Of a stretch of 25,740 bases of DNA, positions 1-15,106 are shown piece by piece. The stretch is taken from the IMG/VR virus record IMGVR_UViG_3300032331_000946, positions 1-25,740 of that record. One strand, written 5' to 3'. The first letter of the stretch is position 1; each line of letters opens with the position of its first letter. Position numbers and translations under genes: made by a program. Under the pieces are notes generated by a model. The model had not been told where the DNA came from, ran no database searches, and saw only the letters and a program-made list of their open reading frames with translations. The stretch is from a virus.

Positions 1-110
1 TGCATTGACCTGCGTTTAGGTTCGCACATGTGGGCATACAGAGTTCTCTCTTTCATAAAACTCTTACCGCAATGAGTGCAGTTAAACGGTTGATCAGCTA
101 GTTGTATCAT
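1..110 (-). CDS. C2HC-type zinc-finger protein, N-terminal part (cut by window edge)
   Basis: Only the first 36 codons are inside the window. The reading frame starts at ATG 110-108 and remains open to base 1. The visible peptide has a compact zinc-finger pattern: CTHC (residues 11-14), a 12-residue spacer with aromatic and basic residues, then HMC (27-29) and a basic stretch EPKRR. A C-x2-C...H-x-C arrangement is typical of small nucleic-acid-binding zinc fingers, and from memory similar N-termini occur in T4-like marine phages. The start overlaps the 3' end of the preceding gene by 17 bases, so it is probably translationally coupled as the last visible member of the gp32-uvsX operon. Its exact role is unknown; DNA or RNA binding is inferred from the finger only. 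Confidence 0.7.
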   Translation of the reverse strand, partial: MIQLADQPFNCTHCGKSFMKERTLYAHMCEPKRRSM

Positions 111-524: not shown

Positions 525-1466
525 TTATATACTAATTTTAATATGTTTAACAGAGCCCCAATCTCTCCAAATTCTCCCCTTGGTGTGATATAAGATTGCT
601 CCTATACTGCTACTAGGATCCCCAGGATTAGGCAATGACCAAACATATTTCCATGCTTTTACTTCGTATTCATTTGCCTTGCTATTCATAGCACAGCCGC
701 CCATATATACTAAACAATCAGTATCAATTAACTGTCGAGCTTTAAGCATAACAGCTGACACCTGATCCTCGAATACTAATTGTACAGCCGCAGCGATATC
801 ATTCCTATCTTGTTGAGTATCAATTGTGTAAGGCCAATCTGTTACTCCTTTGTGTAAATTTTTAGTTAATTTAACAGTGAAATTGATATAGCGTTTAACA
901 TCGCAATAATATCGTTTAGGGTCACCTTGTGCAGCCATTTGCTGTAGTAGATGTTCCTGTTTAATTGGTTCCAGGCCTATTAATTTAGTAAAGGCGCTGT
1001 AAAACAATCCAAGACTATGTGGATAACTACGACTCCATACTTTCTTTAATTCACCGCGACTACCTTCCCAGATGCTAGCACATTCAAACTCACCGATAGC
1101 ATCAAGAACAACTACAGCGCAATGATTAAAAGGACTCGTGTAGTATCCGGCAGCTGCATGACTGGCATGATGAGGAGTATATGTGACAGGAACATAGTCT
1201 AACCCTAATTGTTTAAGATGTCTACTAGGCAGTGACGACATATCAAAAGCAGTGGCATATTGACCAGCATACGCTTGCCTCGCTTTTTTAAGCCAAGGCC
1301 TCTCATACCAAAATATTCCATCGGGGATGCCATATCTGTCAATCATGTCAGTAACATCTGTTTGACTTAATCGATCTTTGTCAGAGTCTATCTTATTAAA
1401 CCCATTACGTGATAATACCGTCAAACTGCTGCCGTGATTAAGTGCGTTAATTCCCCAGTAGTTCAT
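525..1466 (-). CDS. Short carbamoyltransferase (NodU/TobZ/CmcH type), Kae1-like domain only
   Basis: The N-terminus WGINALNHGSSLTVL matches the opening strand of the carbamoyltransferase N domain. HHASHAAAGYY (residues 99-109) carries the metal-binding H-x3-H pair, VVVLDAIGEFE (118-128) the nucleotide-site acidic segment, YPHSLGLFYSAFTKLIGLEP (148-167) the family signature, and MGGCAMNSKAN plus PNPGDPSSSIGA (255-290) the C-terminal half of the ASKHA fold with Asp283. Known NodU/TobZ enzymes are about 550-600 residues and have a C-terminal YrdC-like domain that makes carbamoyl-adenylate. This 313-residue protein stops after the Kae1-like half and the downstream frame is a different gene, so it is short by design rather than broken. 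It is probably coupled to the 37-residue gene upstream (ATGA). The acceptor is unknown; a modified DNA base or small molecule is possible. Confidence 0.85.
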   Translation of the reverse strand: MNYWGINALNHGSSLTVLSRNGFNKIDSDKDRLSQTDVTDMIDRYGIPDGIFWYERPWLKKARQAYAGQYATAFDMSSLPSRHLKQLGLDYVPVTYTPHHASHAAAGYYTSPFNHCAVVVLDAIGEFECASIWEGSRGELKKVWSRSYPHSLGLFYSAFTKLIGLEPIKQEHLLQQMAAQGDPKRYYCDVKRYINFTVKLTKNLHKGVTDWPYTIDTQQDRNDIAAAVQLVFEDQVSAVMLKARQLIDTDCLVYMGGCAMNSKANEYEVKAWKYVWSLPNPGDPSSSIGAILYHTKGRIWRDWGSVKHIKISI

Positions 1467-2298: not shown

Positions 2299-2801
2299 TA
2301 CCAGCACCTTGTATAATCAACTAGTTCACATTGTCTACTGACTTCTTTGACAAAATAAGCACACAATGGTTTTTCTCCTGCGTGTAGCGGCGTGCACAAT
2401 AGCTGCCCAGGCCGCATCTTTGGAAAATACCATTTAACATCTTGGTAGACATTAATAATATCAATCTCATGGAATTCTGGTCTGAAACTACTCAGTGGAT
2501 TGAAACAAAATGTTTTGAATCCTCTATCATTGAGACTAGTGATAGGCAGCACTTCCATATCAGGCCCTTCAGGATCTCCCACGATAGTACACCAATCCAA
2601 TGGCATAGTTAACTCATGTGGTCCAATTTTTAATACTACAGCAGGACCTGTGAAACTCTCTAAAAATATCAATGGAATAAAAAAATAATCAGGATCTTTA
2701 TTATCACTGTTATCCAAGACAGCAAATCTCATATCCTCCTCTATTTCCTCTGGAAGCTCATTCAAATAGAATGTCTTGTTGTCTAGTGTTAAAATCTGCA
2801 T
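2298..2801 (-). CDS. Conserved hypothetical protein downstream of uvsW, 167 aa
   Basis: A strand-rich soluble protein with an acidic N-terminal third (ELPEEIEEDMRFAVLDNSDN), a hydrophobic centre (FFIPLIFLESFTGPAVVLKI) and a C-terminal aromatic region (VKWYFPKMRPGQLL) ending in CW. It has no recognisable catalytic motif. The start overlaps the uvsW stop as TAATG and its own stop overlaps the next start as TAATG, so it lies in a strict coupled chain. Position next to uvsW suggests a role in replication or recombination, but this is context only. Confidence 0.7.
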   Translation of the reverse strand: MQILTLDNKTFYLNELPEEIEEDMRFAVLDNSDNKDPDYFFIPLIFLESFTGPAVVLKIGPHELTMPLDWCTIVGDPEGPDMEVLPITSLNDRGFKTFCFNPLSSFRPEFHEIDIINVYQDVKWYFPKMRPGQLLCTPLHAGEKPLCAYFVKEVSRQCELVDYTRCW

Positions 2802-4261
2802 TATTGATATTTTACCTTTTCGATTGTAAAGGGGTAATTAGCCTCTTTATAAAATTTCTTTCTTTCTGTTAAATGTTTCTTGGCATACTTTGTACTGGCT
2901 GTTAGATCCCAGATTTGGACGAAGTCTTTATCGTCCGCTTTCCTAATGCCTCGTCCAATTGATTGTATAACTCTTGTAAAGCTCTTTCCGGATTCCAACA
3001 TAACCAAATTAAAAATACGAGGGATATTAATACCCACAGCGGCCACACCGTAAGTCGCCACAATGATCTTGTTAGTACTCGTTTTAATTTCGTCATATTC
3101 TTCTTTACGATCTTTTGTTTTTACTTCACCTGATATGAATACAGAATCTTCTATTATACTAGTTATTATACGTCCTGATTCTATTCTGTCAACCAATACT
3201 AGTGTATTTCCACTATCAGAGATACCTTTTACTAGTTTACTGATCCATTCCATCCTAGTAGGGTCTGTCACTAGATATTTTAATTCTTCGGGATAACTAC
3301 CAAACTCTTTCCATTCAGAAGTTTGTATCACATTAACATGACACTCACTAAGCACACCCTTTTCTTGTAGTTCAGATGCGCTAACCCGATGAATAACATC
3401 ACCTAATCCAACACGAATATTCTGAAAATCTATGTCATCTTTAGGAACAGTACCTGTGAGTCCCCAACGTATAGGAGTATTGGCCAGATTGTTTGTAAGA
3501 AGTTTTTTCAACACTTCTGCCTTGGCCATATGTACTTCATCGACCATAACTGTCTTAACTCCAGCTAATAATTCTGCCAAAGTTAGTACCTCGCCTTCCT
3601 CAAAATCTTTGGATTTTTTGTCTAAAATATTAAGACTTTGCCAAGTACAGATTGTATGTGTTTTGTCGAGATTTTTTCTGTCACCGTAGTACACACCAAC
3701 ATCAAGTTGACAGTTAAGGAAGTCTTCTTCAGTCTGTTCTACAAGACTTTTGTTTGGAACGATAGTTACAGTACGACCGTATTTTTCACAGATTTTCGCC
3801 AAAGTTGCGGTGGTAATGGTCTTACCAAATCCAGTGGCAATTTCCTGGATACATTGGGGATTCTCGAGAAATTTATTAACAACTTCCACTTGGTCATCAC
3901 GTAGTCTAATTTTCTCTCCAGCAAACCGATGTCCGTCTGGCCAGGTTTGATCACCCCAAAAATCTTCGGAAATTTTGGTGAAATTTAATGGTTCTGAATC
4001 ACGTAGATCATCCAACAATGGATCATATCCCTGACGTAGTAATTCTTCTATAACCTCAGGAAGTATACTCATGTAAGTAGTTCCACCGAGACCAAAGAAG
4101 CTGGTACAGCCATCCCACCTACCCAGCTTATATGCTGGAAGATACCTGGCTTTTTGGTCAAAATATTTGAATTTTTTAACCAAAGATTTGCGTGTGTCGA
4201 GATCTAAATTTTCTATCTTGACATTAACTTCGTCCTTGATAACGATCCTACATGACTTCAA
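2801..4261 (-). CDS. uvsW: UvsW-type DNA helicase (SF2), recombination and late replication
   Basis: The superfamily 2 motifs appear in order: RDDQ (121-124), motif I ATGFGKT (142-148), motif II DEVH (241-244), motif III LTGT (268-271) and motif VI QSIGRGIR (433-440). An N-terminal segment of about 110 residues precedes the motor (KSLVKKFKYFDQ... RWDGCTSFFGLGG), as in T4 UvsW, which unwinds branched DNA and R-loops and reverses forks, helping the switch from origin-dependent to recombination-dependent replication. Length (486) is close to T4 UvsW. The start is TTG at 4261; no upstream ATG is possible and the N-terminal domain requires this start. It overlaps the preceding stop as TTGA. The start has no strong SD and probably depends on coupling. 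Confidence 0.95.
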   Translation of the reverse strand: MKSCRIVIKDEVNVKIENLDLDTRKSLVKKFKYFDQKARYLPAYKLGRWDGCTSFFGLGGTTYMSILPEVIEELLRQGYDPLLDDLRDSEPLNFTKISEDFWGDQTWPDGHRFAGEKIRLRDDQVEVVNKFLENPQCIQEIATGFGKTITTATLAKICEKYGRTVTIVPNKSLVEQTEEDFLNCQLDVGVYYGDRKNLDKTHTICTWQSLNILDKKSKDFEEGEVLTLAELLAGVKTVMVDEVHMAKAEVLKKLLTNNLANTPIRWGLTGTVPKDDIDFQNIRVGLGDVIHRVSASELQEKGVLSECHVNVIQTSEWKEFGSYPEELKYLVTDPTRMEWISKLVKGISDSGNTLVLVDRIESGRIITSIIEDSVFISGEVKTKDRKEEYDEIKTSTNKIIVATYGVAAVGINIPRIFNLVMLESGKSFTRVIQSIGRGIRKADDKDFVQIWDLTASTKYAKKHLTERKKFYKEANYPFTIEKVKYQ

Positions 4262-14659: not shown

Positions 14660-14667
14660 TACTTATC
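14660..14667 (-). promoter_or_regulatory. Weak late-promoter-like element GATAAGTA before gp16-like gene
   Basis: Minus-strand GATAAGTA, spacer TTTGACT, then ATG 14652. It differs from the common TAAATA core by one base but has the same position relative to an SD-less ATG. It lies within the last codons of gp4. Confidence 0.45.
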
Positions 14668-15106
14668 ACATCTTTTTACCACTATGGTATAAATCGTGTT
14701 CAGTGATAATACGGAAAATCACACCATTTTGCTGGCTCCATGCTCGAGCAGCGGCCCATTTTACCATATTTCTAACATACTGTGCCTGATTGTAGGGATT
14801 CTTCCCAACACGTTCTCTTATAGCCTGACTCGCTGGTTTTATTTCCCAAAGTTCGGCCCGTTTTTTCTTTTTGTTATCTACAAATACTACTAGGAAATCC
14901 GGAACGTAAACAGTTGGCTTGCCTGTCAGTGGATCTTTGTAAGGTATTTTTACGCTCTCACTTGCCCATTGTTCTATAGCATCATTTTCATCACACATAC
15001 GCATAACTGATAATTCCCAGGATGATCTATATCGAGGCTCGCCTAGGCCTATATACTTTTCAGGATTCTTAACCTGATAGATACCCTGACTAAATTTCAA
15101 GCTCAT
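14666..15106 (-). CDS. 4: Head completion protein gp4 (PD-(D/E)xK-type nuclease fold)
   Basis: A 146-residue protein with the gp4 pattern: FSQGIYQVKNPEKYIGLGEPRYRSSWELSVMRMCDEN, with the Glu in SSWE (31); VPDFLVVF (Asp70); and ELWEIKPASQ (Glu88, Lys90), together a PD-(D/E)xK nuclease arrangement like TnsA or VSR. In T4, gp4 (gp50/65 group) acts at the portal after packaging so that tails can join the head. The start overlaps the stop of the preceding gene as ATGA. There is no SD, so coupling is likely. Neighbours are structural and packaging genes, which fits. Confidence 0.9.
   Translation of the reverse strand: MSLKFSQGIYQVKNPEKYIGLGEPRYRSSWELSVMRMCDENDAIEQWASESVKIPYKDPLTGKPTVYVPDFLVVFVDNKKKKRAELWEIKPASQAIRERVGKNPYNQAQYVRNMVKWAAARAWSQQNGVIFRIITEHDLYHSGKKM

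Follow-up and report, generated by a model that had tools for sequence, protein, structure and literature searches.

A single-domain carbamoyltransferase of aquatic T4-like phages and its pairing with a second, full-length carbamoyltransferase

The locus and the carbamoyltransferase gene

The window analysed here is the whole of a 25,740-nucleotide stretch of viral DNA (IMG/VR record IMGVR_UViG_3300032331_000946). Its left part holds the edge-cut start of a zinc-finger-like gene, a short carbamoyltransferase gene, a run of small genes and a UvsW-like helicase gene, all on the reverse strand (Table 1). The carbamoyltransferase gene is an open frame of 313 codons with an ATG start, and both its coordinates (525-1466) and its intactness had been given correctly in the original prediction. 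Further along the window (14666-15106), a head-closure protein carries a TnsA-like endonuclease domain (PF08722).

Table 1. Features of the window that bear on the short carbamoyltransferase
Feature	Position	Strand	Basis or remark
Start of a zinc-finger-like gene truncated at the window edge (relatives: about 231 aa)	1..109	-	MIQLADQPFNCTHCGKSFMKERTLYAHMCEPKRRSM resembles family-7 starts in L004 and L006
Short transferase-only carbamoyltransferase, complete Kae1-like domain, 313 aa	525..1466	-	Pfam, AF2
NPGDPSSSIGA (residues 280-290), containing Asp283 (GdmN D333), the fourth ligand of the iron	597..629	-	D283 invariant
GGCAMN, residues 256-261, Kae1-like nucleotide-binding motif	684..701	-	G256, G257 and N261 invariant
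Q175-Q176, where two-domain enzymes have an invariant (100%) Met-Gly pair	939..944	-	Alignment
Asp122 codon, third iron ligand (GdmN D156), start of acceptor loop DAIGE	1101..1103	-	Invariant in all aligned carbamoyltransferases
HHASH, residues 99-103, with iron ligands H99 and H103 (GdmN H133/H137)	1158..1172	-	Invariant
D29-K30, where two-domain enzymes have the ER....K segment that is lost here	1377..1382	-	Alignment
His11 codon, counterpart of the general base GdmN H27 / TobZ H14	1434..1436	-	No variation among short, phage two-domain or long forms
Small upstream genes, 56, 154, 97 and 167 aa	1463..2801	-	154, 97 and 167 aa match families adjoining uvsW in relatives
UvsW-like helicase, landmark of the replication/recombination cluster	2801..4261	-	Syntenic with relatives

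The protein had been described as the Kae1-like half of a carbamoyltransferase without the YrdC-like domain, and this is borne out by Pfam. It matches PF02543 (Carbam_trans_N) with 91 bits (E 1.3e-25, against a cut-off of 24 bits) over positions 122-345 of the 346 in the profile, and PF16861 (Carbam_trans_C, YrdC-like) is absent from it. The motifs listed in the original prediction could all be located: H99-H-A-S-H103, the "GxxF" within SLGLFYSAF (residues 151-159), and PNPGDPSSSIGA at residues 279-290. The nearest solved sequences are NovN, GdmN and TobZ, and all of the sequence matches in the PDB are carbamoyltransferases.

Structure prediction and comparison with TobZ and TsaD had been proposed as a check. 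The AlphaFold model, built on 20 relatives, has a mean pLDDT of 89.9 and aligns over nearly its full length with GdmN (VIA Z 26.4), VtdB (25.5), NovN (25.4) and TobZ (25.0). The scores against TsaD/Kae1 proteins are lower, 15-17 (about 17 for Kae1/TsaD, compared with 24-26 for GdmN/TobZ). Judged by sequence and model together, residues 1-313 are the whole Kae1-like domain and not a truncated half, and the protein is closest to the class III carbamoyltransferases, not to TsaD/Kae1.

In GdmN, the histidine equivalent to His11 acts as the base, two histidines and two aspartates are the iron ligands, and carbamoyl-AMP is held in the Kae1-like domain (PMC9633730). The window protein has the same class III features, namely the N-terminal base histidine and an iron site of His-x3-His and two aspartates. 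Short-form members down to 35% identity all retain His11, H99, H100, H103, D122, G125, E126, GGxAxN and PGD (D283) without exception. The original prediction had named a metal site lost in relatives as an observation that would count against it; this was looked for and did not occur. The median dN/dS between close pairs is 0.085 for the short form and 0.092 for its two-domain orthologues. The short gene is under purifying selection and is not a broken gene.

Short and two-domain forms at the primase-helicase locus

Relatives of the window protein are encoded on 196 stretches found by scanning viral contigs. Among the 80 relatives taken, nearly all are 312-318 aa long and 60-77% identical; the overall range is 312-339 aa, and the few short relatives outside 312-318 aa have an earlier start or cut ends. 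The short gene is a common gene of aquatic T4-like phages. Two contigs of this phage type (L249 and L250, contigs C57 and C77 of G041) are found in a Neomarinimicrobiota MAG, apparently as two copies, and are likely to be misbinned phage.

In most relatives the gene lies between the DNA primase and the DnaB/gp41 helicase, a position conserved in about 70 of 80. The start of a zinc-finger-like gene, which in relatives comes before the primase, forms the left edge of the window, and the carbamoyltransferase gene is thus differently placed: it lies nearer uvsW, a few kb upstream of the usual site and inside the same replication cluster. Its closest relatives, L002 and L003, are likewise outside the primase-helicase setting. 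A remnant of the YrdC-like domain downstream of the short gene was considered and rejected; in most relatives the helicase begins directly after the short gene.

Several other genes were seen near this locus. In most relatives, a gene upstream of the primase encodes a protein of 192 aa (L004:5084-5662; phrog_11778, "DNA polymerase") that has the PDIDIDF motif known from bacterial Pol III alpha. Several phages encode a Bax1-I (PF01027) membrane protein (L031:11846-12538) near the short carbamoyltransferase, and a QueC-like PP-loop gene (L226:2412-3071) overlaps the start of the short gene in one marine contig.

The usual site was surveyed from the helicase outwards, by taking 80 helicase loci and recording any carbamoyltransferase within 4 kb upstream. 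One is present at 71 of them: 45 are short, a count that takes in L288, the contig-cut end of a two-domain gene, and 26 are two-domain forms of about 489 aa in which Pfam finds both PF02543 and PF16861. At seven loci the primase is directly beside the helicase with no carbamoyltransferase between them. Close relatives differ in form or in presence: the flanks of L315 and L303 are 87% and 89% identical and enclose different carbamoyltransferases, while L077 and L319 have an occupied and an empty site. On the best helicase tree there are some 23-24 changes of state, and on well-supported branches at least 14 for the short label. The carbamoyltransferase gene behaves as a swappable cassette.

How many times the donor half was lost depends on the sequences included. 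Without the phage two-domain forms, all short forms fall in one clade (90/87). With them, the short forms split into a clade that contains the window protein (35 rows, 100/99) and a marine clade (18 rows, 100/99), the latter grouping with the phage two-domain forms (97/97). The initial view of a single loss was dropped when the added phage two-domain forms split the short clade, although a constraint to one short group, at a cost of 16.9 log units, has a p-AU of 0.064 and leaves a single loss just possible. Two separate losses are therefore the history of the YrdC half that the trees favour. The bacterial orthologues are two-domain proteins of 485-490 aa.

The two short clades have also changed at the same set of residues conserved in two-domain enzymes. 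Among these, the ER....K segment (changed or deleted at its site) and a Met-Gly pair are altered in both clades, while the transferase residues are kept; both motifs are about 100% conserved in two-domain forms, and Met-Gly is kept in the phage two-domain and bacterial enzymes and in the long phage enzyme considered below. The lost motifs presumably face the YrdC-like domain, and the residues lost in the short clades might affect donor binding. Because both short clades have lost the same charged and Met-Gly motifs, docking in the manner of a domain in cis is doubtful, and the usual mode of docking to a YrdC-like domain looks unlikely for the short protein.

The loss of a domain, together with motifs conserved in all two-domain enzymes, might also be expected of a decaying or non-catalytic remnant, or of a protein that merely binds a carbamoyl group or AMP. 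The original prediction had allowed for a binding protein, but the invariant base histidine, iron ligands and GGxxxN, and a dN/dS of about 0.085 like that of the two-domain orthologues, argue against it. The length of the short form is uniform, its catalytic residues and its low dN/dS hold across deep divergence, and intact cassettes have been exchanged repeatedly. A remnant or a binding protein is thus highly improbable.

Some 70 of 80 relatives have the gene beside those for the primase and the replicative helicase, which raises another reading, in which phage DNA or a nucleotide (e.g., 5-hydroxymethylcytosine) would be carbamoylated by the short enzyme in a manner coupled to replication; a DNA-modification role had been suggested in the original prediction. 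A two-domain relative of the same fold does carbamoylate 5hmC in DNA and 5hmdCTP (PMC8670742). However, the known 5hmC enzyme is a full-length protein of 63 kDa, and a search of the eight largest short-form relatives found no thymidylate-synthase-type dCMP hydroxymethylase (PF00303). The single PF00303 match, in G015, has the PFN motif of an ordinary thymidylate synthase, and ThyX is present in three genomes of relatives. A search for TET/JBP dioxygenases (PF12851) gave no match in 12 relatives and was equally silent in control genomes. The conserved position may be plain synteny, and linkage to the helicase was set aside as proof of a replication function, since the gene is exchanged or missing there and lies elsewhere in the window, L002 and L003. 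The 5hmC role is thus not supported, and carbamoylation of phage DNA or nucleotides in general is considered very unlikely. As for the gp1-like dNMP kinase that had been suggested as a partner, the kinase is real (PF21448) but lies 20 kb from the short gene, and a partnership is not supported.

A second carbamoyltransferase and the proposed supply of donor

A second, full-length carbamoyltransferase of about 600 aa is encoded 34-61 kb upstream of the short gene in paired genomes. All eight relatives with contigs of at least 86 kb (G001-G008) carry this long enzyme, 34-56 kb upstream, and it is also found in G041, G052 and G054, up to 61 kb away. This makes 11 of 11 short-form genomes, counted among those with enough upstream contig and chosen via the short gene or the helicase, not via the long gene. 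Conversely, the long gene is absent from the four two-domain-form genomes with ample contig (G042-G045; 0/4) and from G059, where no carbamoyltransferase was recognised at the locus (0/1); these are the only four two-domain genomes, and the only one without the gene, that were large enough for the comparison. Fisher's test gives 7e-4 (11/0 versus 0/4) when the relatedness of the genomes is ignored, and this value overstates the strength of the association, since the genomes share ancestry and several of them (G003, G007 and G022) are nearly duplicates.

Three further genomes (G010, G017 and G055) have 34-48 kb of upstream contig and no long gene on it, which is borderline and not decisive because the long gene is found at distances of 34-61 kb. 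When 20 contigs were found via the long gene instead, 10 carried the short gene and the other 10 had no helicase locus; these long-only contigs were dismissed as counter-examples, since none of them reaches the helicase locus.

Two-domain genomes nest among paired short-form genomes in the tree of terminase, uvsX and ssb, with G044 among G003, G007 and G008, and G042 and G043 among G001, G002 and G052. The form at the locus and the long gene have therefore switched jointly at least two times. The pairing of the short form with the long enzyme is strong; it rests on few independent switches, two against the genomic background, and on virus contigs that may be fragments. It is predicted that the phage from which the window derives carries the long enzyme beyond the window, which reaches only 24 kb upstream; the expected place is roughly 34-61 kb upstream of the short gene.

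The domain that the short form lacks is found in its partner. Paired genomes that were searched have exactly one PF16861 domain, always in the long gene, with no stand-alone PF16861 protein in the short-form genomes. The original prediction had offered "another phage protein" as one possible donor source, and this fits: short-form genomes with enough contig encode the long enzyme, and two-domain-form genomes do not.

The long enzyme forms a separate clade (100/100), so the possibility that the short gene is a recent duplicate of the long one was ruled out, and it matches the cyanophage Nol-like family phrog_1601. It is sited in the tail-gene region, near a GT9-like glycosyltransferase gene that lies within 3 kb in 79 of 80 loci (L138-L217), although the Pfam match to GT9 is weak. 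In the isolated cyanophages S-SSM7 and Sf-FS3, relatives of the long enzyme are encoded next to tail and neck genes, in cassettes of heptose or sugar type, together with an extra Kae1-only gene. In S-RIM44 (L256:2465-4086), a YrdC-like protein (181 aa) and a Kae1-like protein (337 aa) are encoded by neighbouring genes beside thyX. The cyanophage Kae1-only proteins keep the motifs that are lost in the family of the window protein. Bacterial orthologues of the short form adjoin GDSL-type genes.

The preferred reading, to which we give about an even chance, is that the short protein is a transferase-only O-carbamoyltransferase that uses carbamoyl-AMP made by the long phage enzyme. We infer both enzymatic activity and a donor supplied in trans. 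The short protein could not make carbamoyl-AMP because its YrdC-like domain is gone; the donor would most likely be made by the full-length enzyme encoded 34-61 kb upstream, and a single donor synthase would serve two transferases. Carbamoyl-AMP would be held at the iron site of the short protein, and His11 would act as the base in transfer of the carbamoyl group to an acceptor hydroxyl. That the conserved motifs are lost suggests arrival of the donor by diffusion or by a different contact, and not through the usual channel. Our guess is that the acceptor might be a sugar or glycan, since both the long enzyme and the bacterial orthologues are found in glycan-type settings. A different version, in which the freely diffusing carbamoyl-AMP from the second enzyme feeds a replication-coupled nucleic-acid or nucleotide carbamoyltransferase making a yet-undescribed base or nucleotide modification, has very little probability.

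The pairing and the loss of two-domain motifs would also be accounted for if the two enzymes worked in one complex or pathway without carbamoyl-AMP being taken from the YrdC domain of the long enzyme, for example by successive carbamoylations, or if the long enzyme made the acceptor of the short one. The constant GT9-like neighbour (79/80) gives the long enzyme a glycan-type context of its own, in keeping with such an arrangement. It leaves unexplained, however, why the partner brings exactly the lost domain and why each paired genome has one YrdC-like domain, and the short enzyme would still need a donor. This arrangement seems rather unlikely.

Alternatively, the host might supply the donor, e.g., threonylcarbamoyl-AMP made by TsaC/Sua5 or carbamoyl-AMP made by an enzyme of the HypF type; the pairing would then be ecological. 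A stand-alone Kae1-like domain does resemble the TsaC-TsaD arrangement, in which the enzymes act independently (PMC9654439), and no YrdC gene of the TsaC/Sua5 type (PF01300) was found in the phages among 20 relatives. But in sequence and fold the protein is closest to class III carbamoyltransferases (Z 24-26) and not to TsaD/Kae1 (Z 15-17), and a host donor leaves the pattern of 11/11 versus 0/5 unexplained. A host donor is distinctly unlikely.

Comparison with known systems

No description of a split or single-domain carbamoyltransferase, or of this paired arrangement, was found in the open-access literature searched. These phages have a single-domain carbamoyltransferase, and a second enzyme encoded by the phage itself provides a match for the half that is missing. 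The observations on sequence are firm, and the biochemistry is inference. A widespread phage lineage has dropped the half that makes the donor, on what appear to be two occasions; among the sufficiently large genomes examined, this is seen only where a second complete enzyme is present.

The nearest counterparts are the phage two-domain orthologues (about 489 aa; e.g., L279 2515-3981), which belong to the same family, occupy the same locus and have all the Kae1-like catalytic residues in common with the window protein. Bacterial relatives in Edaphobacter, Geodermatophilus and Binataceae (485-490 aa) belong to the same gene family and also share these residues. In both groups the YrdC-like domain is retained, as are the charged and Met-Gly motifs, all of which the window protein lacks. 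The four genomes with the phage two-domain orthologue that were checked are without the long second enzyme, unlike the short-form genomes. The intact two-domain and short alleles found at one locus in close relatives constitute matched pairs for experiments.

The class III enzymes TobZ, GdmN, NovN and VtdB have the Kae1-like fold, the base histidine and the four iron ligands in common with the window protein, but they fuse a YrdC-like donor synthase to the transferase, whereas the window protein has none. In TobZ and HypF, carbamoyl-AMP is thought to pass via a channel between the two fused domains (PMC9654439). These phages would provide a natural test of whether the channel from domain to domain is needed, and of how one donor synthase can serve two transferases.

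The 5hmC carbamoyltransferase found by MetaGPA is phage-type and belongs to the same superfamily; it is a full-length 63 kDa protein with a C-terminal domain and a thymidylate-synthase-type neighbour (PMC8670742), while the window protein lacks the C-terminal domain and no hydroxymethylase gene of that type was found in its eight largest relatives. The cyanophage Nol-like proteins (phrog_1601 and phrog_20469; S-RIM44, S-SSM7 and Sf-FS3) include split or Kae1-only genes that adjoin, or share a genome with, a YrdC-like domain, although the S-SSM7 Nol branches with the long clade and not with the clade of the window protein. Finally, TsaD/Kae1/Qri7 of tRNA t6A synthesis are stand-alone Kae1-like transferases fed by a separate YrdC-type enzyme, much as is proposed here, but they belong to another sequence family, are structurally more distant (Z about 17 versus 26) and use threonylcarbamoyl-AMP as the donor.
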